Virus record (IMG/VR): IMGVR_UViG_3300023184_003849
Coordinates: 57,847 to 121,846 of that record
Direction: 5' to 3' (one strand)
Source of the DNA: a virus
Length of the DNA: 64,000 bases
Shown here: piece by piece, positions 5,840 to 56,745 of the stretch
Layout: the number at the start of each line of letters is the position of its first letter
Position numbering within the stretch: the stretch's first letter is position 1
The notes under the pieces: model-generated
What the model was told of the DNA's origin: nothing
Database searches by the model: none
Seen by the model: the letters and a program-made list of their open reading frames with translations, nothing else
Program-made: the position numbers and the translations under genes

Positions 5840-7121
5840 TTTTCATCCACCACTCTGCCACTTCAGGGCGTTGACTTAATATATCTGTCAAGGTCACTGA
5901 TTGTGTTCTTATTTGTTCTAGTTTGAGCACACGAGCCTTGCCTCGACGCAGTCCCTCCTGATATTGATCAGGCCACTGTTCCGCAAACGTGGGCCGGGTT
6001 TTTAATTGTAGCAGTACATCACGCATGGCACCTGCGGAGCGGCCTGCTAGTTCGTCAATCCAAGGGTCCAACAAATGCCTAGGCAGTGCCAAAGGACTCA
6101 AGATTATATCTGGGGAGAAACTGAATATGACCTTGGCCAACAGTTGTACCCCATACTTGTGTGCCAGGTTTTCCATTGCATCTGTTTCAAACATTCCAGG
6201 GAGAGTGAGGGTAAAATCAAGACGCATTTGTCTAGGGTGTTTGGCGTACTGTAAGCCGTGTTCAAAATTACTACAGAACTGTTCATAATTCAGTCCTGTA
6301 CGAATATATTCCCCGATTTTGTCTAATCCATCCAGACTAGCACATATTTGCCAATCTCGTACATGACTGAGGATATCGCCAAAAAGATCCAGGCCTCGAT
6401 AATTAATTCGACTCAAATTAGTATTGTATCGAGCATATAAACGAGGTCCATCTCCTAATTCCACGATTCGTTTCATGTAACGCCAGTGCTGTTCATACAT
6501 TAGCGGCTCTCCGCCAACCCAATATACCTCTTCAACACGGTGTCCTTCAACGGCGGCAGAAAACTCGGCTTCAACCTGATTCTCCTGAAAGTGTGCGATC
6601 TTGCCACGTATATCTGCTCGCATCCAATGATTTTTTGGATCGTGCCAATCAACCATGTCATGAGTTTTTTCTTCACTTTCCCAGGCGCTTGAAAGCATGT
6701 CTCCGCAGGTTCTGCATCGGAAATTGCATAGATTTGAAAACCTATAATCCCACGACACAGGTACCATAGTTGTAGAGCCATCCGCATTAGTGTTATTGTA
6801 AACTTCTTTGATCTTGTGTCCGAATAAATGATCGAAGTAGGTCCTATAGACATCGGTGTTGAGCAGTCGGTCATTGCATACCTCGCATTCTGGTAGTTTT
6901 TCCCCGGCCATCATTCTGCGCCTAACGCTTTTCATGTGTTCTGAATTCCAATGCTGTTCAAGTGTGATGGGAATGTATTGCCCTGTGCCCCGGGCTGTGT
7001 CTATATACTGCTCAAAGTTTTGCGCAGGTTCCCGAGATGCACAGCACATACGTCGTTCTGTTTGCGGACTTAAATATGTATGCACCCAGGGCGCTAGGCA
7101 GAGATTGTTAGGTTTCTGCAT
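5832..7121 (-). CDS. Radical SAM protein with N-terminal SPASM-like domain (copy 1)
   Basis: 429 residues. The radical SAM motif is C132, C136, C139 (CNFRCRTC), which binds the 4Fe-4S cluster that cleaves S-adenosylmethionine. VGGEPLMYE about 70 residues later is the SAM-binding GGE motif. Upstream of the core is a SPASM-like pattern: C8 in LCLAPW, C26 and C27, then C79/C82 in CEVC. Such a domain normally follows the core; here it precedes it. The family usually modifies peptides or small substrates through auxiliary Fe-S clusters. The C-terminus ends RPEVAEWWMKIA, a divergent form of the ending shared by the paralogs. It is a cytosolic enzyme. The substrate is unknown; glycosyltransferase-like and carbamoyltransferase neighbours suggest glycan or glycoprotein tailoring (inference). 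Confidence 0.85.
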   Translation of the reverse strand: MQKPNNLCLAPWVHTYLSPQTERRMCCASREPAQNFEQYIDTARGTGQYIPITLEQHWNSEHMKSVRRRMMAGEKLPECEVCNDRLLNTDVYRTYFDHLFGHKIKEVYNNTNADGSTTMVPVSWDYRFSNLCNFRCRTCGDMLSSAWESEEKTHDMVDWHDPKNHWMRADIRGKIAHFQENQVEAEFSAAVEGHRVEEVYWVGGEPLMYEQHWRYMKRIVELGDGPRLYARYNTNLSRINYRGLDLFGDILSHVRDWQICASLDGLDKIGEYIRTGLNYEQFCSNFEHGLQYAKHPRQMRLDFTLTLPGMFETDAMENLAHKYGVQLLAKVIFSFSPDIILSPLALPRHLLDPWIDELAGRSAGAMRDVLLQLKTRPTFAEQWPDQYQEGLRRGKARVLKLEQIRTQSVTLTDILSQRPEVAEWWMKIA

Positions 7122-8016
7122 ATTCTAACAATGGTTCTACAATTTCATTTATAATACGTTGTTTTACTAATTTTTGATCGAAAAAATGGTTGTGATTATG
7201 TGTCAATTTTTGAAGTGTAAGTATATCATAATGGTCTATCTGAACAGAGTCGATAACATCAAGTATCAATGATAAACGTTGATCAAAAGACTCAAGTTTA
7301 TCATAGGATTCATCAAACAAATTATCAAATGTTTCAAATCCTTGACTTTTTATTGTTTGCAACATTCCTGCGCTGCCTAAGACAACAAACGGATGATAAT
7401 AGGCACAAGGTTTATAAGTTTTTTCGGTTAGGAAACTGCAACGTTCCGGATTAATGCTTGATTCAATGACCAAACTCATCCAGGTGGTGTCATACCAATC
7501 TGGATTGAAAAAACGTTGATAGTTTGGATCATCGCAAGATACATCATCAGGAAGTCGTTTGTCTTTGTAACTCCATATGAAATTTTCTAGTCTTGTCCCT
7601 AGCCGATCAATTATAATGTCTCTTTCTGTCTTTGCACGATTTATTGTCATGAGAGACTTTTTTTTATAGTTTTTCTTAGGAATATAATTGTGATAGCCCA
7701 AAAATTGCCACCATAAACTTTCATTGTACCAAAACCATTGATTGTTTGTTAATTCATAATAATTATTTTTAAATTCTTTATCAGATTGTTCCCATAGATT
7801 GTCAATAACAACTTTATATCCTAAACTTTTTAAATTTTGACTATAACTGTCATTGGCATTACAATGCCATACCACAAAGAGTGTTGAATCAGCATGATAG
7901 AATTTGTCTGTATCAAACCATTCGATATCAAAGTATTGTTTCCAAAATTCTTCAAGATAACAACTGGTGAAACTTGAGAATTCATTTGGTCTCAGTATCA
8001 TTTTTATCTTAGACAT
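7108..8016 (-). CDS. Glycosyltransferase-like protein (TEKxFKPI family), paralog 3
   Basis: 302 residues, the shortest member of the family with the clear motif. FLTEKTYKPCAYYHPFVVLG lies near residue 195 and is followed by GFETFDNLFDESYDKLESFD. The N-terminal part is AT-rich and shortened compared with paralogs 1 and 2. It lies between two radical SAM genes and overlaps both by 8-14 bases, so each enzyme pair would be made together. The local AT content is higher than in the flanking radical SAM genes, consistent with separate acquisition. A glycosyltransfer role is inferred from the shared motif, not shown by a definitive catalytic signature. Confidence 0.7.
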   Translation of the reverse strand: MSKIKMILRPNEFSSFTSCYLEEFWKQYFDIEWFDTDKFYHADSTLFVVWHCNANDSYSQNLKSLGYKVVIDNLWEQSDKEFKNNYYELTNNQWFWYNESLWWQFLGYHNYIPKKNYKKKSLMTINRAKTERDIIIDRLGTRLENFIWSYKDKRLPDDVSCDDPNYQRFFNPDWYDTTWMSLVIESSINPERCSFLTEKTYKPCAYYHPFVVLGSAGMLQTIKSQGFETFDNLFDESYDKLESFDQRLSLILDVIDSVQIDHYDILTLQKLTHNHNHFFDQKLVKQRIINEIVEPLLEYAET

Positions 8017-9208
8017 AGTTTAATAATTTAGCCATTTCAGGTGCAACATTTGTGAAATCTTGATTGCGGCGTTGATCAATTTTTTGTATTTGGCTTAATG
8101 TTTCTTTTCCATCAGTTGACTTGCCACGCATCATAAAATCCACAATACCCTCAAAATCTTTTTGATAACCAGTGTGTGCATTGAGTAAATGTTCAGCAAT
8201 GGCTTGCTTGGTAGTATCGGGCAAGCACCCGATTGAGAAATACCAAGCATCGTGCATGATATTCCAGTACACAAAATCAAAACCCTGTACACTGATCCAG
8301 TGTGCCAGTTGATCAATATAACGCACATTGAAAATGTTTACTGTAGAGCAACATTGCAATTGAATGTTACTATACTGCTGGCGCATTTGACGAAACAGTT
8401 CAAGATTTCGTTGTACATCTGCCCATTTAGCACCTGTACGCTGATATTCAAATCTTTCACAGAGGTCATCAATTGAAAATGCAATCTCTACTGTTTTGAA
8501 ATGTTTCCAAATATGCTCTGCTTGTTCTGGCCATTGTGTGCCATTGGTGTTGTAGTGTATTTCTACTTGTGATGCAATACCACGGTCCACTATGCCTCGT
8601 AACATCGCAAAGTGTTCTTCAATCATAAATGGTTCGCCACCAGTAAATTCGATGTAACGAATATCATTTAACACCGAATCAATTTGATTCCAAAATTGTT
8701 TATTCTCTCTAGGCCAGCGCCCAGCCTTTAACATTTGATAGGGGAAACTTGTTTTACTGTGCTCTTCTACTGAAGTTGCGATTTCTTCCACAGCAAAACT
8801 ACTGCTAGACCAAGATCCACATATACGACATTTCAAGTTGCAGATGTTACCTAGTTTAAGATCCAAAAACATAAGTGGTTTAGCATCTTGAGTCCATCCT
8901 GATGTGATGCCCATGTGTTTGAGTCTATCTAGTGTATGCATACGCTTACTAGTGCGACCAGCATCCTCCTCTTCCCAGCATTTGCGGCAAGTGTGTGGCT
9001 GTTGACCTGCTAAAAATGCTTGTCGCAGTTGATACATGTATTCACTGTTTTGAATATCTTTAAAATCAGCAGACTTCAAGTTAAATTTAACACTATTACT
9101 ATCTACTATTTCATCGTCAGCAAGACAACACGGACGCACAGTACCTATAGGCGTCGCCTCTAGACTAACCCAGGGCAAAACACAAAATTTGTCAGACGGT
9201 AAATTCAT
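8009..9208 (-). CDS. Radical SAM protein with N-terminal SPASM-like domain (copy 2)
   Basis: 399 residues. The SPASM-like N-terminus is C9 in FCVLPW, C27/C28 after GTVRP, and C74/C77 (CRKC). The core is C123, C127, C130 (CNLKCRIC), followed by FTGGEPFMIEEH as the SAM-binding GGE motif. The ending DQRRNQDFTNVAPEMAKLL is the clearest case of a C-terminal motif shared by copies 2, 4 and 5. All three SAM-cluster cysteines are intact, so the enzyme should be active. It overlaps the next radical SAM gene by ATGA and the paralog-3 glycosyltransferase-like gene by 8 bases. The substrate is not evident. Confidence 0.86.
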   Translation of the reverse strand: MNLPSDKFCVLPWVSLEATPIGTVRPCCLADDEIVDSNSVKFNLKSADFKDIQNSEYMYQLRQAFLAGQQPHTCRKCWEEEDAGRTSKRMHTLDRLKHMGITSGWTQDAKPLMFLDLKLGNICNLKCRICGSWSSSSFAVEEIATSVEEHSKTSFPYQMLKAGRWPRENKQFWNQIDSVLNDIRYIEFTGGEPFMIEEHFAMLRGIVDRGIASQVEIHYNTNGTQWPEQAEHIWKHFKTVEIAFSIDDLCERFEYQRTGAKWADVQRNLELFRQMRQQYSNIQLQCCSTVNIFNVRYIDQLAHWISVQGFDFVYWNIMHDAWYFSIGCLPDTTKQAIAEHLLNAHTGYQKDFEGIVDFMMRGKSTDGKETLSQIQKIDQRRNQDFTNVAPEMAKLLNYV

Positions 9209-10467
9209 TTTAATGCTACCAATTCAGGCAATGCATGTTGCCAGGATTCATTTCTAATTTCATCTAACCCGTGTGTTCGGCGCCAGAATGTATCAATCAA
9301 CTGGGTGTTGTCTGTGGCATTCATAAAGGCAATAGCAGATTCAAATCCTTGTGTGGCACGGCCCAATGAGTCTCTATCACTCATCCAGGACAGATGCTTG
9401 CGATACTTTTCTTCTAATCTTTCTTTGTACTCTGCAGGGGCAATATCTATTCTATAATATGCAGGATCTTGTAAAATATTTACATTTAAATCTTGCGGTT
9501 GAATTAGTCCAGCGGCACACCACTCCTTGTGAAATTCTGGCAAGTGCCAAGCATTTAATATGCTTAGTGTGGGTGAGATATAAAAGTCTACCTGGGGACA
9601 CATTGCAATCATTCGGTGACGATTTTGCACAACATCATACCAATTGGTACCTTTGCGTATGTATTCGGCAGGATGACCCATGCCATCTAAACTGGCGCCC
9701 ACTGCCACTGAGTCAAACTGTTGCCAGTATTCAAATACGCTACGGCCTTTCAAGTCTGTGTGCGTGAAGTTGGTATTGTATATTAAACGCACGTCAAAAC
9801 GTTTTCTTTTTACAAGTTCTTCAAGAATGTTATAGTGTTCTTCCATCAACAAGGGTTCACCACCAGCAAAGTATATCTGCTCCACGTAATCCAAATGGGG
9901 CTCCAGTTGCGTCCACATGTCTGTCTCTGTGCGTCCTGCATAGTTTAATACACTATTGCGATCTTTCCATCCTGGCCCGGCCAGTTTTGCCTGGTCTTGA
10001 TACCACTGACTACTAAAGATATGCCCACACGATCTGCATTTTAAGTTACATAAGTTACTGAATCGAATATCCCAATAAGTCATTTCAAAAGGGTTCTCAT
10101 CCAATTTTTTTATCTGATGTCCGTGATGTTTGTTGGCTGATCTGCGTCCTGAAAAGAATCCCGATTCTTCTTGCTCATAACAGCGTGTGCAGGCTGCGTG
10201 TGGAGTTTCGCTCAGCATATCTGCACGTAGACGTTTCATAGGCTCACCAGTCCATATTTCTTCAAGCGTATGAGTTCTACAATTGCCCACCACACCGGGC
10301 TTCATTTCGGCATGGCAACAGGGATATGCTTCACCTGTAGGGTAAGCGTGTAAATGGATCCAGGGATAGATACAAAAGGTCTTTGAATCTTCTAATAAGA
10401 AACGCTCACGTTCTGTTAGTTCTGTGGCACGTACTAGATCTGTGGAGTTATACCGGTATTGCGTCAT
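9205..10467 (-). CDS. Radical SAM protein with N-terminal SPASM-like domain (copy 3)
   Basis: 420 residues and the best textbook SPASM pattern of the five: C32 in FCIYPWIHLHAYPTGEAYPC, C50/C51, C63 after VVGN, THTLEEIWTGE, then C93/C96 (CTRC). The radical SAM core follows with C140, C144, C147 (CNLKCRSC) and FAGGEPLLMEEH. In known SPASM enzymes such as anaerobic sulfatase-maturating enzymes this domain lies after the core, so the order here is reversed. An extra 30 residues precede the SPASM part. The gene is coupled to copy 2 by ATGA and overlaps copy 4 by 20 bases. It probably works in the same modification pathway. Confidence 0.87.
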   Translation of the reverse strand: MTQYRYNSTDLVRATELTERERFLLEDSKTFCIYPWIHLHAYPTGEAYPCCHAEMKPGVVGNCRTHTLEEIWTGEPMKRLRADMLSETPHAACTRCYEQEESGFFSGRRSANKHHGHQIKKLDENPFEMTYWDIRFSNLCNLKCRSCGHIFSSQWYQDQAKLAGPGWKDRNSVLNYAGRTETDMWTQLEPHLDYVEQIYFAGGEPLLMEEHYNILEELVKRKRFDVRLIYNTNFTHTDLKGRSVFEYWQQFDSVAVGASLDGMGHPAEYIRKGTNWYDVVQNRHRMIAMCPQVDFYISPTLSILNAWHLPEFHKEWCAAGLIQPQDLNVNILQDPAYYRIDIAPAEYKERLEEKYRKHLSWMSDRDSLGRATQGFESAIAFMNATDNTQLIDTFWRRTHGLDEIRNESWQHALPELVALK

Positions 10468-11785
10468 ACCATTCTTTTAGTTCGGGGAAGGCAGCGCCAA
10501 AGTCTTTTGATCTACGTTGATCATACTGTGTGTAGAACTGTCGGAAATCATTTAACAGTCGGGGCATTTCAAATGCTTCAGAATGAGGAGTTTTGACCAC
10601 ATCCAAATAATCAATCAAGCGTTGTGTGTGATTGACTTCGTGTTCGTGAATGATATCACTGTCAACCCAGTGCTCTAGCCATGTCTCCAAGCGTTGTCTA
10701 TATACTGTGCGTTGGGCATCAGGTAGCACCAGTGGCGATTGGAAACTAGGAAATCGTAGAATGTTCAATGTAAACGAAACCGCATCTCGGCCATATTCTA
10801 GTTTCCAATTCATTATGCACTCTAACAATTGATCCAAGGTAGTCAAACATAATGCATTAATGGTACACATCACATGTATGCCACGGAACTGCCCTGAGTC
10901 TAGTAGTCTTTCTACGTTGTTGGCCCAGTCGTCCCAGACCAGTCCGTCACGGATATACTCTGCTTGAGTGGAGATCGCCTCATTTGACGTGTATAAATCG
11001 ATTACCATTCCTTGTGTGCTGTCAAGCAATCGGTCAATGTCAACGTCGGTACCCAGGTTACTGTTGATAGCCAAGCGTGTGCTACTCTTGCCCTGATTAT
11101 CTCGAAACCAATCAATGAGTCGCCAGGTGTGGGCGGACATGAGGGGCTCTCCTCCGGTGATTCTAAGTTCTGTAAGAGTGCGATGTAGATCTGACTCCCA
11201 CCATGCAAAAAATGCGCTAATGTAGGCATTATCCTCCGTGATCTTAAACAACTGAGAGTTGTCATGAGTGTGAGTAAAGTGGTTACGACCATCACTGACC
11301 AGGTTGCGATAGGGTCCGTTATTGCGTATGTCTCGAACCCAAGTTGTGCTAAATGCAGGGTTACAGTAACTACAAGCAAACTGACAAGTACGATCGAAAG
11401 CAATTTCCAAGGTACGGAGATTGACGTCTTCAGTGGGTAGTGTATTTCTAGCCTCATGCAATGCCTCTATAGGGTATATCTTACTCTTATACACACGATC
11501 ACTCACAGCATCGCGACCCATGTCTTCAATTTTCCAACAGTATTCACAGCCTGCGGGACGTTCTCCGATGATCATCTTGCGACGATCTTCTTTCTTTTGA
11601 TCAGTGTTGTGCAACAGCCTAGGGTTGGCGCGAACTCGATCAATGTCCACCAAATGGGCTGGAGGGTGGTGACAACTTGTGGTCATACCAGAGCCTAACC
11701 AAATAGTCGCATTGTACCACTTGGCTGCACAAAAACTTTCACTCAACGTGTCTAATACTGTGTGTTTGAATTCTAAATCGTTCAC
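10448..11785 (-). CDS. Radical SAM protein with N-terminal SPASM-like domain (copy 4)
   Basis: 445 residues. The core motif is C134, C138, C141 (CQFACSYC), with RITGGEPLMSAHTW as the GGE motif. The N-terminal cysteine domain is a variant: C19 in FCAAKW, C38 in TSCHHPP, and C80/C83 (CEYC). It has a single Cys where copies 1-3 have Cys-Cys. Copies 4 and 5 share this variant and form a subgroup. The C-terminus YDQRRSKDFGAAFPELKEW carries the shared ending. The gene overlaps the upstream glycosyltransferase-like gene by ATGA. It is a cytosolic Fe-S enzyme with unknown substrate. Confidence 0.86.
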   Translation of the reverse strand: MNDLEFKHTVLDTLSESFCAAKWYNATIWLGSGMTTSCHHPPAHLVDIDRVRANPRLLHNTDQKKEDRRKMIIGERPAGCEYCWKIEDMGRDAVSDRVYKSKIYPIEALHEARNTLPTEDVNLRTLEIAFDRTCQFACSYCNPAFSTTWVRDIRNNGPYRNLVSDGRNHFTHTHDNSQLFKITEDNAYISAFFAWWESDLHRTLTELRITGGEPLMSAHTWRLIDWFRDNQGKSSTRLAINSNLGTDVDIDRLLDSTQGMVIDLYTSNEAISTQAEYIRDGLVWDDWANNVERLLDSGQFRGIHVMCTINALCLTTLDQLLECIMNWKLEYGRDAVSFTLNILRFPSFQSPLVLPDAQRTVYRQRLETWLEHWVDSDIIHEHEVNHTQRLIDYLDVVKTPHSEAFEMPRLLNDFRQFYTQYDQRRSKDFGAAFPELKEWYDAIPV

Positions 11786-12891
11786 AAATTGCTTTGGATA
11801 AAATTAACAAAGCGGTCAGGAAATTCTTGAAAGATTCGGATTCCTTCTGCCGCCAAGTGTTGTTGATTATACTTAGTTACGGCCCGACTTGCAACCAGAA
11901 ATTCCTCCAGATTGCTGTCACACAGGTCTTGTACCACTTGTGCTATCCTGTCTAACCGATCTTGATTGTTGGCTATTAGATCAAATGATTCGTCAATCAA
12001 GTGACCGAATGTCTGGAATCCTGCATTATGTAAGTCGCGATAAAAACCGCAATTGGCCACTGCCACAAACGGATGGCCCATGGCTATGGGTTTGTAGATC
12101 TTTTCACTGCGCAGGCTGTAAGGATAATCAAACACAGTTTCTGACACCAAACTGAAATAGGTATCTATATAAGGTTCAGCACGGATGTACACGTCACCCC
12201 AGGTGTTGTCAAACAATTCGTGTTTGACGAAAGCATGTTGATACCGATCTTTCTGCCCTGCGCGGAATTGTTCTACTTCGTATTCTGTGGGTAATAATCG
12301 TATCTCGCTGGGTCTTTCAAATAGGTCTGTTGAATAAGTGTGATGGTATACAGGAGTGGTGTCCAGATTAGTCCAGAGTGCGTGATCCAACAGGCCAGCA
12401 TCACGCATGCGCTCTATCATGTATTTTCTATGTGGTCTTGTGCGCCCATTTAGAAACAAGAACTTGTAGGGTTTGTGAAACTTACTGTAGATTTCATCTG
12501 CGCGGGTGCCTTGTTCACGATTGCTTTCATAACAGGTTGCTCGATAAGCATAATGGTCGTAGACCATGCAGTTGAGTTCAGGCTCCATGTCTCCACATCC
12601 TACCAACAGCAATCGCTTTTGTTGAATCAAATCTATCAATCCCAGACGTTGGCATTGCAGTTTGAGTGTTTGCGAACCTTCTGAAGGATTGGCCAATACA
12701 GGCAAACAAATGTTGCTAAGTTGTTTTACCCGATCTGCATATCGGTTCACAGTTTGTCTGGCCAGTACAACAACGTCATTGGGTCTGGGTTCGTACTGTT
12801 CAAAATCCCAAAATGTATCATCCACTAGATGTTGTATTTCCGCATATATCTCACAGGAAGTGTCGCATACCAGACTGTGGTTACCTAGCAT
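11782..12891 (-). CDS. Glycosyltransferase-like protein (TEKxFKPI family), paralog 4
   Basis: The frame is open upstream to 13068, but that would overlap the radical SAM gene by 188 bases. The ATG at 12891 (MLGNHSLVCD) gives an 11-base overlap, matches the operon pattern and follows a purine-rich GGTGGGAAG stretch, so I chose it (369 residues). The family block is SLRSEKIYKPIAMGHPFVAV near residue 285, with Ser replacing Thr, then GFQTFGHLIDESFDLIANNQ. Conserved strands upstream include YKFLFLNGRTRPHRKYMIE, a likely GT-B hinge region. It sits between radical SAM copies 5 and 4. The enzymatic role is inferred from the family. Confidence 0.7.
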   Translation of the reverse strand: MLGNHSLVCDTSCEIYAEIQHLVDDTFWDFEQYEPRPNDVVVLARQTVNRYADRVKQLSNICLPVLANPSEGSQTLKLQCQRLGLIDLIQQKRLLLVGCGDMEPELNCMVYDHYAYRATCYESNREQGTRADEIYSKFHKPYKFLFLNGRTRPHRKYMIERMRDAGLLDHALWTNLDTTPVYHHTYSTDLFERPSEIRLLPTEYEVEQFRAGQKDRYQHAFVKHELFDNTWGDVYIRAEPYIDTYFSLVSETVFDYPYSLRSEKIYKPIAMGHPFVAVANCGFYRDLHNAGFQTFGHLIDESFDLIANNQDRLDRIAQVVQDLCDSNLEEFLVASRAVTKYNQQHLAAEGIRIFQEFPDRFVNFIQSNL

Positions 12892-14284
12892 GATACTGAC
12901 ATTCTTCCCACCAAGATCGCATTTCAGGAAATGTTTGTAAAAAGTCTGTGCCGCGTCGACGGTCATGTTCTGCAAAGAATCTGTAAAAGTCTGCACGTGC
13001 CTCGGAATGATCCTGATTTTGAGCACTACGCATCCAGGCAATGTCTCGGTCCAAGCGGGCAACTTCATAGTCCTTGAATCCTTGATGCGGATATCTGGGA
13101 TCTTCCAGGTGTTCTAACATAAATTGTTTGACTTCTTCTAACTTGGCAATATAACTTGCAGGCAAGATTTGCAAACTCTGCCATGTGGGTGTGCGTAGCA
13201 CAGGAGTATCAAACCATATGCGTTGATAGGTTCTACTGTGTGTTCTTCTTAAAAACAATATCCAACCCAGCAAAGATTTTAATCCTGTAACTGAAAGATT
13301 GTTCATGGTAATGATAAATGTAAGACTGTTATAAGCAGGAACTTCTGTCAAATAACGATCAACGTTGTGGAACATTCGCATGTAGTCAAGTCCGTGGCGT
13401 ATGTATTCAGCCTGCGCGGGTATTCCTGAATCCACGCTTACATATTGCATGAAGTGTTCTATACGACCATCGCAGATTTGTTTAACTGAATCTAAGTAGC
13501 GTTTGAACAGTTCAGGCTCTACTGAGAAGTTTGATGTTACATTTAAATGCAGTTTTTTACTAGGATTGGCCATGATATAATCAAATACTCGATAGGTGTT
13601 CCGGTCCATGAGTGGCTCACCGCCAGTCATTCTAAAATGCTCTAGTTCGGGATACAGTGTCGGCCACCACTGCCAAAAGGCATCGACGTAGGGATTAGAC
13701 TCTCGGGCAGGTATTGGTCGTCGAGAAGCAGTAAAGTGTGCCGGATCATTGTGAGGAACAAGGGTGGGAAAAGCACCGTGTCGTTGTACTTCATCAGCCC
13801 ATGAACTGCTAAATTGAGGACTACAATAACTACATTTAAGATTGCAAGCATTGTTGAAGTTGACTTCCACGTAGGATGGAATAATATCATCTTCATCTCC
13901 GGTTGAGTTCTTTATCCGTTCAAAGTCTACCGCGGCCCAAGGCTCGCCCGAACGATAGTGTCTGTCCGATAGTTTGCCTTGATCTTCCATGTTCCAGCAA
14001 TATGAACATTCTGTAGGACGCTCCTGCTGAAGCATTATTTTCCGCTGTGCTTTTTTGTGCCAAGTGTTGTGCAAAGCCGCAGGGTTGGTTTTTATTGCTT
14101 CTGGATCTATCATGTGTAGCGGAGGATGATAACAGGAGTTGTTGAGTCCAGTGGGCAAATGTAAAGAGACTTGCTTCCATTTGGCCAGGCACAGTGCTGG
14201 ACCCAGTTGATCTTTCATTTGTTCTGCTTGATGCATAAATTCTGATTTGGAATTTTTGTCAATGTTGTTTTTTTCAAGCATCAA
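12881..14284 (-). CDS. Radical SAM protein with N-terminal SPASM-like domain (copy 5)
   Basis: 467 residues. The N-terminal cysteine domain is C32 in LCLAKW, C51 in NNSCYHPP, then C93/C96 (CSYC). The core is C147, C151, C154 (CNLKCSYC) with RMTGGEPLMDRNTY. The ending EHDRRRGTDFLQTFPEMRSW is the shared C-terminal motif. It is the closest relative of copy 4 in the window. It overlaps the upstream paralog-5 glycosyltransferase-like gene by 11 bases and the downstream paralog 4 by 11 bases, so the cluster alternates the two enzyme classes. The substrate is not evident. Confidence 0.86.
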   Translation of the reverse strand: MMLEKNNIDKNSKSEFMHQAEQMKDQLGPALCLAKWKQVSLHLPTGLNNSCYHPPLHMIDPEAIKTNPAALHNTWHKKAQRKIMLQQERPTECSYCWNMEDQGKLSDRHYRSGEPWAAVDFERIKNSTGDEDDIIPSYVEVNFNNACNLKCSYCSPQFSSSWADEVQRHGAFPTLVPHNDPAHFTASRRPIPARESNPYVDAFWQWWPTLYPELEHFRMTGGEPLMDRNTYRVFDYIMANPSKKLHLNVTSNFSVEPELFKRYLDSVKQICDGRIEHFMQYVSVDSGIPAQAEYIRHGLDYMRMFHNVDRYLTEVPAYNSLTFIITMNNLSVTGLKSLLGWILFLRRTHSRTYQRIWFDTPVLRTPTWQSLQILPASYIAKLEEVKQFMLEHLEDPRYPHQGFKDYEVARLDRDIAWMRSAQNQDHSEARADFYRFFAEHDRRRGTDFLQTFPEMRSWWEECQYHAR

Positions 14285-48716: not shown

Positions 48717-49733
48717 ATGACTAATCTATTCCGGAAGGCCGCGGTCTTTACAGACATTCACTTTGGCTTGAAAAGCAACAGCACTCAGCACAACGAGGAC
48801 TGCATGAACTTTGTGCGATGGGCATGTGCCAAAGCAAAAGAGGAAGGTTGCGAAACCTGTTTGTTCCTGGGCGACTGGCACAATAACCGTGCTAGCCTGA
48901 ACATTGTTACACTAAACTACAGCCTGCGGGCACTGGAGCACATGAATGATAATTTTGAAAACGTGTATTTCATTCCTGGTAATCATGATTTGTATTATCG
49001 AGATAAGCGCGACATACAAAGTGTGGAATGGGCAAAGCATCTCCCCCGTGTACAGATATGCAACGATTGGTTTAGCAGTGGAGACGTGGTTATTGCTCCT
49101 TGGCTTGTAGCCGATGACCACAAGCGTATTCCCAAACTAACGGGCAAATACATGTTTGGGCACTTTGAACTGCCCGGTTACTTGATGAACGCCATGGTAG
49201 AAATGCCAGATCACGGTGAAGTGCGCAGAGAAGACTTCACAAATTTTGAACATGTATTTACTGGACACTTTCACAAGCGACAGACCAAAAAGAATATCAC
49301 ATACATTGGCAATTGCTTTCCACACAATTATGCCGATGCAGGCGACGATGATCGTGGCATGATGATTTTGGAATGGGGTAAAGAACCAGAGTTTCATGCT
49401 TGGCCTGATCAGCCACGTTATCGTGTGCTGGGACTGGCCAATATTATAGACAATGCACCAAATTTACTGGCCAAGGACATGCATGTGCGTGTGCAGTTGG
49501 ACATTGAAATATCGTATGAGGAAGCCAACTTCATCAAAGAAACGTATATTAAAGATTACAGTTTGAGAGAAATGGCCTTGATACCCAACAAGAACAGTTC
49601 AGTAGACACTGACATGGCCCCCGGCGAAGTCAAGTTTGAAAGTGTAGATCAAATTGTCACAGACCAGATTACTAACATTGAATCAGAGTTTTACGACAAC
49701 AAATTGTTACTGAAAATTTACCAAACTCTATGA
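48717..49733 (+). CDS. 47: Recombination endonuclease subunit gp47 (Mre11-like)
   Basis: 338 residues, matching T4 gp47 (339). The metallophosphoesterase motifs are intact: D13 and H15 in FTDIHFG, GDWHNN at 52-57, GNHD at 88-91, GHFELPGY near 147 and TGHFHKR near 182. With gp46 it forms the Mre11/Rad50-type complex that resects DNA ends for recombination-dependent replication. The ending overlaps the gp46 start by 4 bases (ATGA), giving stoichiometric production. Confidence 0.95.
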   Translation: MTNLFRKAAVFTDIHFGLKSNSTQHNEDCMNFVRWACAKAKEEGCETCLFLGDWHNNRASLNIVTLNYSLRALEHMNDNFENVYFIPGNHDLYYRDKRDIQSVEWAKHLPRVQICNDWFSSGDVVIAPWLVADDHKRIPKLTGKYMFGHFELPGYLMNAMVEMPDHGEVRREDFTNFEHVFTGHFHKRQTKKNITYIGNCFPHNYADAGDDDRGMMILEWGKEPEFHAWPDQPRYRVLGLANIIDNAPNLLAKDMHVRVQLDIEISYEEANFIKETYIKDYSLREMALIPNKNSSVDTDMAPGEVKFESVDQIVTDQITNIESEFYDNKLLLKIYQTL

Positions 49734-51493
49734 TAAGCATAAAGAATTTGACCGTTAAAAATTTCATGAGTGTGGGAGCGGCCACACAAGGTATTGACTT
49801 TGACCGCAACGACTTGACTTTGGTACTAGGCGAAAACTTAGACCTTGGCGGAGATGGATCACGCAACGGCACAGGCAAAACCACAATTATCAACGCACTA
49901 AGTTACGCCTTGTATGGCCAAGCACTCAGCAACATCCGCAAAGACAATCTGGTAAACAAGACCAATGGCCGGAACATGCTGGTCAGTCTAGACTTTTCAG
50001 TCAACGGTCAAGAATATAGAATTGAACGTGGGCGCAAACCCAATGTGCTGAAATTTTACGTAAATAACGAACAAAAAACAGCCGAGGACGAGGCACAGGG
50101 CGACAGTCGTGAAACACAAGACGCCATAGAACGTGTGATGAACATGAGTCATGACATGTTCAAGCATGTTTTGGCCTTGAACACTTATACCGAACCATTC
50201 TTGAGTTTAAAAGCCAATGACCAACGAACTATCATTGAGCAGTTGTTGGGGATTACTTTGCTATCAGAACGTGCTGATGCTATCAAAGAACTCAATCGTC
50301 AGACCAAAGATGCTATTCAACAAGAAGAATTTCGCATACGTGCTGTGCAAGAAGCCAACCGGCGCATAGAAGAACAGATTGAAAGTCTACGCAAACGTCA
50401 GCGGCTTTGGACAACCAAACGTGATGAAGATGTGGCCAAACTAGAACAAGCCATTGGGGATCTTGAACACATTGATATTGATGGTGAAGTGCAGGCACAC
50501 AGAGACTTGGACACATTTCATGAGCGCAAAAAAGCCACGGACGATGCCAACAGATACATCCGGCAGATTGCCGCAGATGATGTTCGGCTACAAAAGATCT
50601 TAGACAAACTCCGAACTGAAATTGCGGCGTTGGACAATCACAAGTGTCATTCATGCGGTCAAGACTTGCATGATAACAAACAGGAAGAGTTAAAACAAGC
50701 CAAAGAAGAACTGGTGCGTGAAACTGCATTGCAACTTTTGGCCAACGACACGCAACGTCAAAGACACCAAGACACACTGACCCAGATTGGTGAGTTGGTT
50801 TCTGCACCCACGGTGTTTTACGATTCACTGGAACAGGCTTTAAATCATCGCAATACTGTGGAAACCTTGCGCAAAGATTTGACCACACGATCTGCAGATG
50901 TAGATCCATACGAAGAACAAATCACAGACATGCAGGGTCAGGCTCTTCAGGTTGTTACTTACGACGCATTAAACGAACTGACAAGATTACAGGATCACCA
51001 AGATTTCTTGCTCAAACTGTTGACATCCAAGGATTCATTTGTTCGCAAGAAGATTATTGATCAAAATTTAAGTTATCTAAACGCACGACTCACACACTAC
51101 TTGGATCGCATTGGATTGCCACACACTGTGAAGTTCCAAAACGATCTCACAGTGAGTATCGAAGAACTAGGCCGAGAACTAGACTTTGATAACTTGAGTC
51201 GTGGTGAGCGCAATCGTTTAATATTAAGTATGAGTTGGGCATTCCGTGATGTTTGGGAAAGTTTGTACTCACCTATCAACTTGTTGTTTATTGACGAGTT
51301 GATTGACAATGGTTTGGACACACAAGGTGTAGAGAATGCTCTAGCCTTGCTGAAAAAGATGAGCCGAGAGCGTCACAAATCAATCTGGCTGGTTTCACAT
51401 AGAGACGAACTGGCCGGTCGTGTGGAGAACATTCTCAAAGTTGTAAAAGAGAATGGTTTTACCACTTACAACACGGATGTTGATCTAGCATAA
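49730..51493 (+). CDS. 46: Recombination endonuclease subunit gp46 (Rad50-like ATPase)
   Basis: 587 residues, close to T4 gp46 (560). Walker A is at 43-52 (GSRNGTGKTT). Coiled-coil arms (residues about 190-290 and 310-420) flank a zinc hook with C305 and C308 in CHSCGQDL. The ABC signature LSRGERNRLILSMSW is near 489 and Walker B FIDELIDNGLD near 520. It is an ATP-driven partner of gp47 in DNA-end processing. The stop overlaps the next start (TAATG), so the accessory radical SAM gene behind it is co-translated. Confidence 0.95.
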   Translation: MISIKNLTVKNFMSVGAATQGIDFDRNDLTLVLGENLDLGGDGSRNGTGKTTIINALSYALYGQALSNIRKDNLVNKTNGRNMLVSLDFSVNGQEYRIERGRKPNVLKFYVNNEQKTAEDEAQGDSRETQDAIERVMNMSHDMFKHVLALNTYTEPFLSLKANDQRTIIEQLLGITLLSERADAIKELNRQTKDAIQQEEFRIRAVQEANRRIEEQIESLRKRQRLWTTKRDEDVAKLEQAIGDLEHIDIDGEVQAHRDLDTFHERKKATDDANRYIRQIAADDVRLQKILDKLRTEIAALDNHKCHSCGQDLHDNKQEELKQAKEELVRETALQLLANDTQRQRHQDTLTQIGELVSAPTVFYDSLEQALNHRNTVETLRKDLTTRSADVDPYEEQITDMQGQALQVVTYDALNELTRLQDHQDFLLKLLTSKDSFVRKKIIDQNLSYLNARLTHYLDRIGLPHTVKFQNDLTVSIEELGRELDFDNLSRGERNRLILSMSWAFRDVWESLYSPINLLFIDELIDNGLDTQGVENALALLKKMSRERHKSIWLVSHRDELAGRVENILKVVKENGFTTYNTDVDLA

Positions 51494-52449
51494 TGTTCAA
51501 TCTTGCAACCAAAACTATACTTCAAATAGAACCAACCACAGTATGCGGACTAGAGTGCCCTCAATGTGCTAGATACTTTGACAATCAAATAAATCCACTC
51601 ATGCAATCTGCTGAACTAACATTAGAAGATGTGCAACAACTATGTCCAGTTGAATGGGTACAAGGTTTAGAAAAAATGTTCATGTGCGGCACTTACGGCG
51701 AACCAGCGGCTGCTCATGACTGTTTGGAAATTTTTCGTTGGTTTAGAAAAATTAATCCTAATATTACATTGGGCATGAATACCAGTGGTAGTTTGCGTAA
51801 CATAGAGTGGTGGCAAGAACTTGGAACTATTTTGAATCAACCACTAGATTATGTTGTTTTTAGTATCGACGGACTAGAAGATACTAATCATGTTTATAGA
51901 CGCAACAGTAATTGGAATAAAATCATGAACAGCGTTCAAGCATACATTACAGCAGGTGGTCATGCTCATTGGGACATGTTGGTATTTGAGCACAATAAAC
52001 ACCAAATTGATCAAGCCAAAGAATTAGCCACACATATGGGATTCTCTTGGTTTCGTACCAAGTACACAGACCGCCCAATAACAAAAAATATACAATGGTT
52101 AAAAAAAGTACCGGAGGCTATTGAAAATTCTACTAAAAGCGATCAAATAATCTGCCATTATGAAACTACTAACCAGGCTTATCTTAGCGCACAAGGACAA
52201 TGGTTTCCTTGTTGTTACATTGGTGGAAAAATACATTACCCAGACACAAGCGGTCAAGAATTACGAGGAATTTTTAATAGCCAGGACCTGCCTCAGGATT
52301 TTAAGACAGTTCATCACAGCGGTGCCTGGACCACTGTTTGGAAAAGTTGGAACCATCGACCATTATCAGTGTGTTTAGACCATTGTGCTGCCAGTAGAGA
52401 ACAACCAAAAGTTTTAAATAAATGGAAACAAGAAATTCAACTGCACTAG
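51493..52449 (+). CDS. Radical SAM protein with C-terminal SPASM domain
   Basis: 318 residues. The core motif is C18, C22, C25 (CGLECPQC). CGTYGEPAAAHDCL replaces the usual GGEP segment, as in many SPASM-type enzymes. The C-terminal SPASM cysteines follow LSAQGQWFPCCYIGG near residue 240, with CLDHC near 297. The order is the usual one (core then SPASM), unlike the five leftward copies. Such enzymes commonly modify peptides or activate partner enzymes. It is fused to the gp46 operon by TAATG overlap. An SDR and a second radical SAM follow, suggesting one pathway. The substrate is unknown. Confidence 0.85.
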   Translation: MFNLATKTILQIEPTTVCGLECPQCARYFDNQINPLMQSAELTLEDVQQLCPVEWVQGLEKMFMCGTYGEPAAAHDCLEIFRWFRKINPNITLGMNTSGSLRNIEWWQELGTILNQPLDYVVFSIDGLEDTNHVYRRNSNWNKIMNSVQAYITAGGHAHWDMLVFEHNKHQIDQAKELATHMGFSWFRTKYTDRPITKNIQWLKKVPEAIENSTKSDQIICHYETTNQAYLSAQGQWFPCCYIGGKIHYPDTSGQELRGIFNSQDLPQDFKTVHHSGAWTTVWKSWNHRPLSVCLDHCAASREQPKVLNKWKQEIQLH

Positions 52450-52450
52450 T

Positions 52451-53053
52451 ATGAAAATATTAATTACCGGTACATCAAGTGGATTAGGCCAAGAATTAGT
52501 CAGCCGTTTGCATCATCATAACGTTGTTGCACTAACTAGACAACTGCTAGATTTGTCAGACATTAAATCTGTTGTTAACTATGACCCAGGATTTTGCGAT
52601 ATTTTGATAAACTGTGCTGGCACAGATCTTGGTGGTAAAATTGATTTTGTAAATCATCGAACCCAGCACGTGGTTAATATTTTAAATACAAATCTTATTG
52701 CGCCTATATTGTTGAGCAAACAGGCATTGTCAACCAATTCTAAATGTAAAATTGTAAACATCACTAGTACCAACAATAACAGATACCATGCCAATAACTT
52801 GTGTTATAGTTTGAGCAAAAAGGCATTGGCAGAATTTGGGGCAATGTTAAAAGTTGAGTATCCAGATGTTGATTACTTAGAAATTAAACTGGGTCTTGTC
52901 AAGACCGAATTTAATCGCAACAGATATAAATATGAACCTGATCGATTTTCTGATATCTATCAACTCCCATATTTGACTGTGAGTCAGGCTGCCGACATAA
53001 TTGTACCTGCTATACTCAACTCTTCAATTAAATCTATCGAAGTTGCACCATGA
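52451..53053 (+). CDS. Short-chain dehydrogenase/reductase
   Basis: 200 residues, short for an SDR (about 250). TGTSSGLG at residues 6-13 is the NAD(P)-binding Gly motif, NCAG at 54-57 the structural motif, S106 in the ITST strand, and Y119-x3-K123 the catalytic pair. A complete catalytic triad is therefore visible. It oxidises or reduces a hydroxyl/carbonyl substrate using NAD(P). Only one base separates it from the upstream gene, and it overlaps the next by ATGA. Sugar or metabolite processing together with the radical SAM proteins is likely but inferred. Confidence 0.88.
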   Translation: MKILITGTSSGLGQELVSRLHHHNVVALTRQLLDLSDIKSVVNYDPGFCDILINCAGTDLGGKIDFVNHRTQHVVNILNTNLIAPILLSKQALSTNSKCKIVNITSTNNNRYHANNLCYSLSKKALAEFGAMLKVEYPDVDYLEIKLGLVKTEFNRNRYKYEPDRFSDIYQLPYLTVSQAADIIVPAILNSSIKSIEVAP

Positions 53054-54147
53054 AGTATCCTTGGCAATTATATCATTGGCATTTTGAAGTCAGCGGCAAA
53101 TGTACACTCAAATGCCCTCGTTGTCCTCGCAATGATACCGCCCCAGTTGCTTGGATTAACAAAGAACTTGATCTTGAATTTTTTAAGAAAACTCTAACAC
53201 CAGACTTGTTGAAAAACACAGTGAAACGTGTTACAATGTGTGGAGATGTTGGTGATCCTATCTATGCTAGTGAATTTTTAGAGATTGTTGAGTATGTTAA
53301 ACAAAACAATCCAAAAATTCATGTGTATACTATTACCAATGGAAGTTATAGGAAGCCTGATTGGTGGAAAAAGTTTGCTAGTATCAGTAACGAATACGAT
53401 ACTATAAATTTCAGTATTGATGGGTACGATAATCAGTCTAACAATTTATATCGTATCGGCAGCGATTGGAAATCAATCATGACTGGTATGGATATCATGT
53501 GCAAAGAAAGTTCTGCGTTTGTGTATTGGGCTACTATATTGTTTTCGTTTAACCAAGATCATAGAGATAGCATATTGACGCAGGCAAAAAATATTGGGTG
53601 CGACGGTGTTCAGTTTACCTATAGCACAAAGTTTGGCAGTAAATACGGCGAAGCATATGGTGGTGCTACAGATCCATTGGAGCCACGTAATGAGTTTATT
53701 AGTCAAACTCATCGATACGAAAGAGAATTAATAGGTCTGAGCGACCGTTTGCCGTTAAACAACTCTTATCTTGATCATAACAAACAAAAGTATATTGAAA
53801 TTAAACAAAAACACAATTCTTTTGTTACTCCTATGTGTAGCATAGGCAATCGAGGTCTTTATGTAAGTGCAGATGGTGTATTACATCCTTGCAGTTGGGT
53901 GAGTTTTCCTTATGTGTCTATGTCAACTGATCGTAAAACTATAAATTTTAAAGACAGTTTCCACCAGACCTATAGAGATCAACTAGACCTTACACAACAC
54001 ACTTTGCATAATGTATTAGATAATGACATTTGGGCTAAACTATTTGATTCTTTTGACGATGCTGGCCGTGCCTGGGTCGAGTGTGAACAAAAATGCAACT
54101 GCAATCTAGTCAATGAAGAGTACGCTGTGGGATGGTTGACAAATTAG
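53050..54147 (+). CDS. Radical SAM protein with C-terminal SPASM domain, paralog of 51493
   Basis: 365 residues. The core motif is C18, C22, C25 (CTLKCPRC), the same positions as the 51493 protein. MCGDVGDPIYASEF corresponds to the GGEP segment, and TITNGSYRKPDWW matches NTSGSLRNIEWW of the paralog, so the two share recent ancestry. C-terminal SPASM cysteines are seen in PMCSIGNRGLYVSADGVLHP with CSW, and CEQKCNC near the end. It overlaps the SDR gene by ATGA. The substrate is unknown. Confidence 0.85.
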   Translation: MKYPWQLYHWHFEVSGKCTLKCPRCPRNDTAPVAWINKELDLEFFKKTLTPDLLKNTVKRVTMCGDVGDPIYASEFLEIVEYVKQNNPKIHVYTITNGSYRKPDWWKKFASISNEYDTINFSIDGYDNQSNNLYRIGSDWKSIMTGMDIMCKESSAFVYWATILFSFNQDHRDSILTQAKNIGCDGVQFTYSTKFGSKYGEAYGGATDPLEPRNEFISQTHRYERELIGLSDRLPLNNSYLDHNKQKYIEIKQKHNSFVTPMCSIGNRGLYVSADGVLHPCSWVSFPYVSMSTDRKTINFKDSFHQTYRDQLDLTQHTLHNVLDNDIWAKLFDSFDDAGRAWVECEQKCNCNLVNEEYAVGWLTN

Positions 54148-54148
54148 T

Positions 54149-54688
54149 ATGAATCAATTTAAAATTGAAACTCATGCCAGTTGGGGACGAACTGCTCCGC
54201 AAATATGTGTAAACAATCAAATACTAACCATTCCTGTAGGTACAAGTTTAGTTGAACTACCGGCACAAGATTTAGAAACATTGACTATAGATTTTTTTAG
54301 TAAAAAAGAGTCTGACACTATTATAGATGAATCAGGGCAAATCGTGGCAGATACAGAATGGCGTATAACTACTATTTGGTGCGACCAAATACGCCTAGAG
54401 TCTTGGTTTCGAAACGATGCAATTTATCGCCCAAAATATTTTTCTGGATTTTTAAAAAATAATCCTGATGCGCCAACAGAGATTACGGCTCCGTATCAAT
54501 TTAACTTTTGCGGAACTATCAATTGGCAATGGCAAGGAGATTTCTGGGAATGGTACTTCCATGAAAAAAACAAAAGAGAAGTTATTAATTTTTTAGACAA
54601 AGATCCCGACCGTGTTTGGAAGTTTCGTGGCAATACAGAATCTTGCGATGATCTTGTGACTGGTATTCGAAACATATTAAATTTATGA
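54149..54688 (+). CDS. Conserved phage protein of unknown function, beta-rich
   Basis: 179 residues. ELPAQDLETLTIDFFSKKES, then DTEWRITTIWCDQIRLESWF and YQFNFCGTINWQWQGDFWEW describe a Trp-rich beta-sandwich such as a carbohydrate-binding or ligand-binding module. The C-terminus KNKREVINFLDKDPDRVWKF is helical. No catalytic motif is seen. It lies between the second and third radical SAM genes, one base after the first and overlapping the next by ATGA. It may bind the substrate or product of those enzymes (inference). Confidence 0.7.
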   Translation: MNQFKIETHASWGRTAPQICVNNQILTIPVGTSLVELPAQDLETLTIDFFSKKESDTIIDESGQIVADTEWRITTIWCDQIRLESWFRNDAIYRPKYFSGFLKNNPDAPTEITAPYQFNFCGTINWQWQGDFWEWYFHEKNKREVINFLDKDPDRVWKFRGNTESCDDLVTGIRNILNL

Positions 54689-56256
54689 AACATTTTGCAT
54701 TTATTAATACTCCCAGTGTAGAACTAGAGCGCCCGCCTGCGGCAGCCGCGGTGATCTCTGCATGTGCAAAATCAGTAGGATGGACTTGTGATCAGTTTGA
54801 TTTTAATCTTTACTTGAATCATGCTGTTGATTCAGACACTTGGCAAGAACTAGAGCAATACTGGAGATGTAAGAGACTAGAGTTAACTGCTGCCACCAAA
54901 AAAAAATTAGATCGAGTTCTAGGCGACTTTATAGACAGTATAGTATATACCAACCCTGATATGATAGGTGTTACTGTGTTTAGCCGTATGAGTGTAATGG
55001 CAGCATGGATAGTATTGCAAGCATTACGTGACAAATACAAAGGCAAGATTGTGATAGGTGGTAGTGGAAGTTATGCATGGCCCGGTAGTTTACCTAGTAT
55101 GGATGCCAACAGTTTAGATTCGTCTACATTTGCTGATTATGCTCACAAAGTTGGATTAGTTGATTATTTTATACAAGGTGATGGAGAAGAGGCATTTGTT
55201 GAATTACTCAATGGTAACGAAATGTATCCAGGTATTAATGGCCAACCTCCTAAGCAAATTGAAAATTTAAACACACTACCTCTTCCTGATTACACTGGAA
55301 TTGAACCAGGAAAATATTTTTACACCCACGAACCAGGCATCTATGTTACTGCAAGTCGCGGATGTGTTCGTAAATGTTCATTCTGTAATATCCCCGAAAT
55401 GTGGCCAAAATTTAAAAACCGCACTGCTGATAATGTTATTCAGGAAATTATAAACGGTAAAAAAAAATTTGGGGTTAACCTGTTTCATTTTACTGACAGT
55501 CTTCTTAACGGCAATATGAAAGTATGGAGAGAAATCAATCATCAATTGAAAGAACTTAGACAGTCAGATCCAGATTTTAAAAACATCAAATATATGGGAC
55601 AGTTTATTTGTCGTACTAGACTTGATCAAACAGAAAGTGATTGGGAATTGATGGCGGCTGCTGGAGCCAATCTGTTTGTAACTGGCATTGAGAGTTTTAG
55701 TTATCGTGTTAGAAAACACATGGGCAAAAATTACAGCGATGCTGATATAGATTTTCACTTCAAGATGAGCGCCTGGCACGGTATTAAAAATATTAGCCTG
55801 ATGTTTATTGGCTATCCTACAGAAACGTTAGAGGACCATGAGTGTAATATAGAGTTTTTGCATCGGTATCGCAAATATGCCCTCAGTGGAGTTATCCATG
55901 CAGTTCGTTGGGGATATACTGGTATGTTCAGAGAAAGTGACAAACTGGAAAAATTTGGTGATGTAAAAATTATTACAGATCCAGATTTTTCCAAAAGATT
56001 TAGCAACTTGCCTCAAGGCATTAGAGACATCGCATTGGGTTTTGGTTGGATCAATAAACTCAATCCAACCTTAGATCTGCGAGAGCGCATTCGTCGACGA
56101 CTTGAATTACACGAAGTTAGTGTAAAATTAGGATGGCCACAAACACGAAGCAGAGAAGAATTACAAATACTTTATAATATTTTAGAAAATTTGAATCGTA
56201 ATCAGGTAGATGGACAAGATTTTGAAGAACTAGAAACATTGTTAGATTTTCATTAA
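54685..56256 (+). CDS. Cobalamin-type (B12-binding) radical SAM protein
   Basis: 523 residues. The N-terminal 150 residues resemble a B12-binding Rossmann domain (DMIGVTVFSRMSVMAAWIVL, KGKIVIGGSGSYAWPG), but the DxHxxG lower-ligand motif is not present, as in many class B enzymes. The radical SAM core has C227, C231, C234 (CVRKCSFC), followed by FHFTDSLLNGN and FVTGIESFSYRVRKHMG. Class B enzymes often methylate unactivated carbons or rearrange substrates. A helical C-terminal extension of about 90 residues is present (LELHEVSVKLGWPQTRSREE). It ends the accessory cassette behind gp46. The substrate is unknown. Confidence 0.82.
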   Translation: MKHFAFINTPSVELERPPAAAAVISACAKSVGWTCDQFDFNLYLNHAVDSDTWQELEQYWRCKRLELTAATKKKLDRVLGDFIDSIVYTNPDMIGVTVFSRMSVMAAWIVLQALRDKYKGKIVIGGSGSYAWPGSLPSMDANSLDSSTFADYAHKVGLVDYFIQGDGEEAFVELLNGNEMYPGINGQPPKQIENLNTLPLPDYTGIEPGKYFYTHEPGIYVTASRGCVRKCSFCNIPEMWPKFKNRTADNVIQEIINGKKKFGVNLFHFTDSLLNGNMKVWREINHQLKELRQSDPDFKNIKYMGQFICRTRLDQTESDWELMAAAGANLFVTGIESFSYRVRKHMGKNYSDADIDFHFKMSAWHGIKNISLMFIGYPTETLEDHECNIEFLHRYRKYALSGVIHAVRWGYTGMFRESDKLEKFGDVKIITDPDFSKRFSNLPQGIRDIALGFGWINKLNPTLDLRERIRRRLELHEVSVKLGWPQTRSREELQILYNILENLNRNQVDGQDFEELETLLDFH

Positions 56257-56316: not shown

Positions 56317-56745
56317 ATGACATGGCTATATCAAGACACTCCAGTTGAGACGTTGCCCGAAGAATGTGTTGGATTTGTTTACTTGATCACAAACAATCTC
56401 ACTGGACGCAAGTACATAGGCAAAAAATTAGCAAAATTCGCAAAAACAACATACCGGACTGTAAAACAACGAAACGGCACAAAAAAGCGGAAACGGATAC
56501 GCTCTAAAATCGATTCAGATTGGAGAGAGTACTATGGGTCAAGCCCAGAATTAACCGCAGACGTAAACACACTAGGCACCGAAAACTTCACCAGAGAAAT
56601 ACTTTACTATTGCCGATCCAAGTCTGAATGCTCATACATCGAGGCTAGAGAACAATTCGCAAGACGAGTATTGGAATCACGAGATTATTACAATGGCCAC
56701 ATCCAGGTCAGGGTGCATGGCTCACACATACTAAACAAAATTTAA
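56317..56745 (+). CDS. GIY-YIG endonuclease-like protein
   Basis: 142 residues. CVGFVYLITNNLTGRKYIGK is the GIY-YIG motif in its Phe-Val-Tyr/Lys-Tyr-Ile-Gly form. A basic segment follows (KRKRIRSKIDSDWREYYGSS), then LGTENFTREILYYC and SYIEAREQFARRVL, the catalytic-Glu helix. It is a single-domain protein. Similar stand-alone GIY-YIG proteins are widespread in T4-like aquatic phages near the terminase and hub genes; some homing enzymes share the fold. Identical 13-nt repeats flank the gene, and a structured non-coding stretch follows it. It may act on DNA or in homing; no host gene is interrupted here. Confidence 0.85.
   Translation: MTWLYQDTPVETLPEECVGFVYLITNNLTGRKYIGKKLAKFAKTTYRTVKQRNGTKKRKRIRSKIDSDWREYYGSSPELTADVNTLGTENFTREILYYCRSKSECSYIEAREQFARRVLESRDYYNGHIQVRVHGSHILNKI

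Follow-up and report, generated by a model that had tools for sequence, protein, structure and literature searches.

Genes for radical S-adenosylmethionine (rSAM) proteins have been known in phages for years without a function. The Campylobacter phages CP220 and CPt10 encode 11 and 12 rSAM proteins, respectively, and a five-gene cluster was proposed to be an interchangeable module (PMC2853527). Closely related pelagimyophages differ by gain and loss of rSAM cassettes in their host recognition clusters (PMC7029224). Outside phages, the rSAM enzyme AprD4 is a 1,2-diol dehydratase that has an NADPH reductase, AprD3, as its partner (PMC5461906). Here we analysed 64,000 nucleotides of viral DNA (IMG/VR record IMGVR_UViG_3300023184_003849, positions 57,847 to 121,846; hereafter the window), in which five genes, three of them for rSAM proteins, lie between gp46 and a gene for a SegE-type GIY-YIG endonuclease. 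We are confident that three units, each inherited separately, make up this run: the stand-alone gene rSAM1, an obligate pair of a short-chain dehydrogenase/reductase (SDR) with rSAM2, and an obligate pair of a 179-residue protein, UNK, with a cobalamin-type rSAM protein (B12 in the gene orders below).

Results

The left border of the run is gp46 (49730..51493, + strand), an SbcC-like gene (PHROG 77, E 3e-101). It is followed on the same strand by rSAM1 (51493..52449), the gene for the 200-residue SDR (52451..53053; PF00106, E 1.5e-16), rSAM2 (53050..54147), UNK (54149..54688) and the gene for the 523-residue cobalamin-type rSAM protein (54685..56256). The SegE-type gene (56317..56745, + strand; PF19835, 115.8 bits) forms the right border, as it does in most relatives. 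The junctions from gp46 to SegE are a TAATG overlap (gp46/rSAM1) and then +1, -4, +1, -4 and +60 nucleotides. A first-pass annotation, made from the sequence alone, had described five overlapping or abutting genes coupled to gp46 through TAATG. All of these open reading frames (ORFs) are present, and the gene list is correct; the order given, in which the SDR comes after both SPASM genes, is not. ORF calls were mechanical. The ORFs are not products of chance, because they are conserved in other phages and have dN/dS values of about 0.04-0.14 for rSAM2, UNK and the cobalamin-type rSAM gene (window against relatives at 68-87% identity) and 0.17 for the SDR (a single pair without saturation). Scans for promoters and terminators gave sites no commoner than in shuffled sequences.

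The first-pass annotation had also treated the five genes as a single cassette. This was rejected, since the units occur separately and distances between the pairs are uncorrelated. Related stretches carrying rSAM1 numbered 86 in IMG/VR; in many the gene lies directly behind gp46, often as rSAM1 alone. SDR and rSAM2 are mostly found without the other genes, being the sole occupants of the gp46-SegE interval in most of the 78 rSAM2 loci. UNK and the cobalamin-type rSAM gene can likewise have the interval to themselves (L120-L126, where L numbers denote the stretches examined; L125 also carries genes for enzymes resembling those dependent on pyridoxal phosphate (PLP)). It had been argued that finding each gene separately in unrelated contexts in related phages would speak against a cassette. 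Such separation was found for rSAM1; the two pairs stay together.

Relatives were mostly metagenomic contigs, some of them redundant, and pairing was counted on clusters at 90% identity. SDR lies directly upstream of rSAM2 in all 47 clusters; in one stretch (L211) just an SDR fragment is left, at the contig end. A gene resembling UNK, termed here CBM-like for its carbohydrate-binding module (CBM) fold described below, adjoins the cobalamin-type rSAM gene in 22 of the 26 homologue clusters scoring at least 250 bits, including jumbo phages (contigs above 300 kb). Conversely, 57 of 60 CBM-like proteins are encoded beside such an rSAM gene, and the remaining three between PLP-like genes. Because the pair loci had been fetched with the pair genes themselves, an independent control was needed: among 80 loci fetched with rSAM1, a CBM-like gene was present in exactly the two that carry a cobalamin-type rSAM gene. 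Pairwise distances led to the same partition. Correlations were 0.73-0.76 for SDR with rSAM2 and 0.75-0.76 for CBM with B12, values similar to that of the control pair gp46 and gp47 (0.76; gp47, from 48717, precedes gp46), against -0.04 to 0.20 between the pairs and 0.03 for gp46 with CBM.

The units are permuted within the slot. The four-gene order SDR-rSAM2-UNK-B12 is found in L084-L086, L106-L109, L111 and L112, and the order CBM-B12-SDR-rSAM2 in L248, L250 and L255. Where rSAM1 accompanies the four-gene set, it is first or last (the window, L228 and L210). A second lineage has the order B12-CBM-rSAM3-SDR (L007, L089 and L103), and in L127, L130, L136 and L139 the B12-CBM pair has the opposite orientation to its neighbours. 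L103 is discordant between flank and cassette, with a gp46 and a SegE gene at 76% and 85% identity, respectively, yet with the other lineage's cassette (B12 37%). Distances for gp46 and SegE are correlated at about 0.55, those for either flank with the genes between at 0.03-0.42. The cassette genes have a GC content of 0.353-0.385, lower than that of gp46 (0.438) or of the contig (0.434), which suggests that they were acquired from outside the core of the genome. Permuted gene orders, discordant identities of flank and cassette, and cassette GC together point to an exchange of modules between conserved flanks, perhaps with the help of the SegE-type endonuclease.

Low GC and a place in a hypervariable slot, next to a GIY-YIG gene, could also be expected of neutral passenger cargo, which would accumulate beside a homing endonuclease and have no selected function. 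However, dN/dS values of this size, strict pairing across distant phages and invariant catalytic residues bring the passenger explanation close to refutation.

Two further observations concern the contents of the slot and its border. L087 (4887-7412) and L125 each have two tandem PLP-enzyme-like genes flanking the CBM-like gene, in place of SDR and rSAM2, and L012 has a similar gene after rSAM1. PHROG 447, labelled NAD synthetase, matches the SegE-type protein at 56317-56745, and the label is apparently an annotation error.

The proteins of the first two units were analysed by motif and profile. The motif CX3CX2C is present in rSAM1, rSAM2 and the cobalamin-type rSAM protein, and all three score above the Pfam Radical_SAM cut-off (PF04055; 36.4, 37.8 and 62.7 bits, respectively). 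In rSAM1 the cluster motif is CGLECPQC at residue 18. The two proteins had been called paralogous SPASM proteins; paralogy is confined to the core (29% over 188 residues), and the SPASM model (PF13186) scores 15.0 bits in rSAM1 against a cut-off of 21.5 and has no match in rSAM2, so we refer to them as SPASM-like. Four C-terminal cysteines of rSAM2 (C263, C281, C345 and C349) are invariant in eight homologues. Against NF033640 (N_Twi_rSAM), rSAM1 scores 33.1 bits, below the cut-off of 170, and rSAM2 is not among the matches listed. The SDR has the motifs TGTSSGLG and YSLSK, in agreement with the patterns TGxxxGxG and Ser-Tyr-x-x-x-Lys, and all 54 homologues keep its S106, Y119 and K123, leaving Ser-Tyr-Lys intact.

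The best sequence matches of rSAM2 in the PDB are viperin-like (E 1e-5). Viperin-like enzymes make nucleotide chain terminators, and this match would agree with the synthesis of a small diffusible compound (antiviral, signalling or cofactor-like) that aids the phage against competitors. The match is confined to the rSAM core, however, viperin lacks a SPASM-like tail, and there is no sign of a nucleotide substrate; we consider a diffusible product improbable.

The cobalamin-type rSAM protein consists of an N-terminal Rossmann-like domain, an rSAM core with the motif CVRKCSFC and C-terminal helices. Structural models here and below were built from shallow alignments (10 sequences); this one has a pLDDT of 79.3. 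Its nearest solved structure is AprD4 (6fd2, with paromamine, a pseudodisaccharide; Z 24.0, 384 residues, 3.3 A), followed by TsrM (21.7), MgmA (21.6), OxsB (21.2), CysS (18.9) and TokK (18.2). The full-length model aligns with TsrM, MgmA and OxsB, as expected of an N-terminal domain of the cobalamin-binding type; PF02310 is below its cut-off. Sequence alone favours methyltransferase families, none of them above its NCBIfam cut-off, and the curated AprD4 model NF033070 is absent among the best 25 of 26 NCBIfam matches. Relatives in GTDB are at most 27% identical and lie in other contexts.

More distant cobalamin-type rSAM genes of phages (L164, L165, L166, L169-L173, L181, L182 and L184) are preceded, with an overlap of 4 or 28 nucleotides, by a gene of 140-200 codons. 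In L164 and L165 this gene resembles, by eye, a sulfotransferase and a 2-oxoglutarate (2OG) hydroxylase, and other types of partner may therefore exist.

UNK gave nothing useful in sequence searches of the PDB and Pfam, and no Pfam CBM model was matched by any of 10 family members. Its AlphaFold model (pLDDT 84.5) has a low-confidence helical tail, and residues 1-140 match the CBM36/CBM60 fold, with Z 8.9 for 2xhh (109 residues, 3.2 A) and Z 8.7 for 2xfd (101 residues, 2.7 A), compared with 4.2 for the next chain; Foldseek E-values were 2e-4 and 9e-4. All 35 family members keep K52, D68 and G122, and 34 of them keep W135. When the motifs were aligned manually with 2xfd, FTND..RD of CBM60 corresponded to FFSK52..D68 of UNK. 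Similar uncharacterised proteins from uncultured phages are present in BFVD; a pattern scan of the GTDB genome collection returned no relative of UNK, and the isolated-phage collection had no match for UNK, for a second CBM-like family or for the cobalamin-type rSAM protein. One hidden Markov model (HMM) was seeded with all three CBM-like subfamilies, and their mutual homology rests on later independent hits and common position. By profile comparison UNK matches the 159-residue protein of L087 with a probability of 93% and the L007-type small protein weakly, with 16%; the latter link is based on common position and on independent members found by the iterated HMM.

A polypeptide had been offered as a possible target of the cassette. 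On one such reading, the rSAM proteins would act on UNK itself, on a protein of the virion or on one of the host, in the manner of ribosomally synthesized and post-translationally modified peptides (RiPPs). SPASM-like and TIGR03975-like cobalamin rSAM proteins, to which there are partial NCBIfam matches here, often modify peptides, and UNK, as an obligate neighbour, could be the substrate. We nevertheless regard a polypeptide as a rather unlikely target, because the cassette leaves no room for a precursor gene (gaps of 1, 1 and 60 nucleotides, which would still allow an unlinked precursor), no PqqD or RiPP recognition element domain (PF05402) was detected in the contig while control genomes were positive, and UNK has a CBM fold. 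In addition, all scores against curated RiPP maturases fall far from the cut-offs, and the invariant K52, D68, G122 and W135 suggest a site in a folded domain rather than a core peptide.

The window makes up the right half of a phage contig of 121.8 kb whose replication and structural genes are T4-like. The first-pass count of eight rSAM genes in the window was confirmed by genes with CX3CX2C, and five more lie elsewhere, giving at least 13 in the contig. This load had been called unusual; it is high, but has precedent in CP220 and CPt10. Outside the slot, a left cluster of five rSAM genes (5832..14284, - strand) belongs to the N_Twi_rSAM family (NF033640, 283-396 bits), and is bordered by a carbamoyltransferase gene at 3226-4707; Pelagibacter phage Mosig also has such a gene among rSAM genes. 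Elsewhere in the contig, a gene resembling rSAM1 and rSAM2 overlaps two NAD-epimerase genes and a gene for a 198-residue DegT-like protein, a sugar-type operon (L001:9691-12997). Half-length DegT/DnrJ/EryC1-like proteins (198 residues) are encoded in two clusters (window 15254-15850 and L001:12401-12997) and are too short for a full aminotransferase. The protein encoded by a further rSAM gene (L002:497-2443) is KedN5-like and of the cobalamin radical SAM type (233 bits, cut-off 700). A QueD-like gene lies at L001:17529-18026, and a QueE-like protein (L002:3972-4904) has CNFTCGGFGMPRGE at the position where CX3CX2C is usual, the third cluster cysteine being missing. Among the other loci, L061 is packed with genes that resemble, by eye, those for rSAM proteins, small SDRs, 2OG-type hydroxylases, UDP-sugar dehydrogenases and HemC.

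Thymidine hypermodification is known to involve rSAM and PLP enzymes of phages. Modification of a base or sugar of the phage DNA by the units, as a defence against host restriction, would be in line with the QueD- and QueE-like genes in the contig and with the replacement of part of the cassette by PLP-like enzymes in L087 and L125. However, no hydroxymethylase of the thymidylate synthase type (PF00303) was found in the contig, which is possibly incomplete; the exchange slot accounts for the neighbourhood of gp46, and a CBM-like partner fits DNA modification poorly. We judge DNA modification to be quite improbable. DNA hydroxymethylation was rejected as a separate candidate, PF00303 not being found in the contig.

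Discussion

The evidence on fold and context points to units that may tailor a saccharide or sugar-like metabolite, a reading that we consider the most likely and to which we assign a probability of roughly 0.45. It is favoured by the CBM fold of UNK, the resemblance of its partner to AprD4 and the rSAM paralogue found elsewhere in the contig directly beside two NAD-epimerase genes and a DegT-type gene. In the proposed sequence of events, rSAM2 would abstract a hydrogen adjacent to a hydroxyl, leaving a carbonyl, which SDR would reduce with NAD(P)H, resulting in epimerisation or deoxygenation. UNK, as a CBM-like subunit, would hold the sugar for the cobalamin-type rSAM protein, and the latter would methylate it, if cobalamin-binding, or dehydrate it, if AprD4-like. 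The host would supply SAM, Fe-S clusters, cobalamin and reductant. The product could be a decorated surface glycan or sugar of the host or virion, whose chemistry would be altered by unit swaps.

Several observations weigh against tailoring of a sugar. Invariant K52 of UNK takes the place, in the manual alignment, of one putative calcium-ligand Asp of CBM60; calcium binding is doubtful for this reason, and calcium-dependent sugar binding may be lost. SDR travels with rSAM2 and not with the AprD4-like enzyme (in four-gene loci, r 0.20 for SDR with B12 against 0.73 for SDR with rSAM2). These two points, the altered calcium motif and the partnership of SDR, disfavour a sugar-like substrate. Furthermore, AprD4 (6fd2) is absent from the PDB sequence matches of the cobalamin-type rSAM protein at E up to 0.01, cobalamin binding by this protein is putative, a CBM-like neighbour went undetected in 4 of the 26 clusters, and there is no glycosyltransferase within the slot itself. 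A fold held in common with CBMs is no proof of function. A specific dehydration or epimerisation step is accordingly a tentative part of the sugar reading. It is also possible, at most, that the slot is a locus of combinatorial chemistry, in which obligate two-component radical enzymes (SDR with a SPASM-like rSAM protein, a CBM-fold carrier with a cobalamin-type rSAM protein, and PLP-type pairs) would be shuffled to vary the structure of a sugar of the host or virion.

Whatever the substrate, a five-gene run has been reduced to two recurrent, inseparable pairs of enzyme and partner that can be directly expressed and assayed, and the CBM-fold partner points toward a substrate class. If the reading as a combinatorial locus is true, the CBM-fold protein would represent a novel type of subunit, one that presents the substrate to a radical SAM enzyme. 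The gp46-SegE slot is worth searching for further units, given the hundreds of rSAM2 relatives that viral contigs contain. Neither the two obligate pairs, the CBM-fold partner nor the gp46-SegE exchange slot was found in the isolated-phage collection or the searched literature, and our literature search found no precedent for a CBM fold as partner of a cobalamin-type radical SAM enzyme.

Among known systems, AprD4/AprD3, which carries out C3' deoxygenation in apramycin, is alike in joining a radical SAM enzyme to a dedicated NADPH reductase, and no solved fold is closer to the cobalamin-type rSAM protein than that of AprD4. In contrast, the SDR of the present system is coinherited with rSAM2, sequence searches do not find AprD4, and the system is phage-borne with a CBM-like partner added. 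The cobalamin-dependent radical SAM methyltransferases (TsrM, MgmA, OxsB, CysS and TokK; the KedN5, PhpK and TIGR03975 families) share the domain layout, Z-scores of 17-22 and partial NCBIfam matches; the phage protein differs in missing all curated cut-offs, in its putative cobalamin binding and in its obligate small partner. UNK differs from CBM36 and CBM60 in its low identity (7-8%), in being a free-standing phage protein with a helical tail and in having one putative calcium ligand changed to an invariant Lys. The twitch-domain family NF033640 includes the five left-cluster rSAM proteins, rSAM1 remaining below its cut-off. The modules of CP220 and CPt10 also hold many rSAM genes, and rSAM1 and rSAM2 have matches there at 22-29%, whereas UNK and the cobalamin-type rSAM protein have none. 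In pelagimyophages, Mosig has a gene resembling rSAM1 and rSAM2 among carbamoyltransferase and aminotransferase genes, in a locus beside tail fibres rather than in the gp46 slot. Phage rSAM clusters as such were already known.

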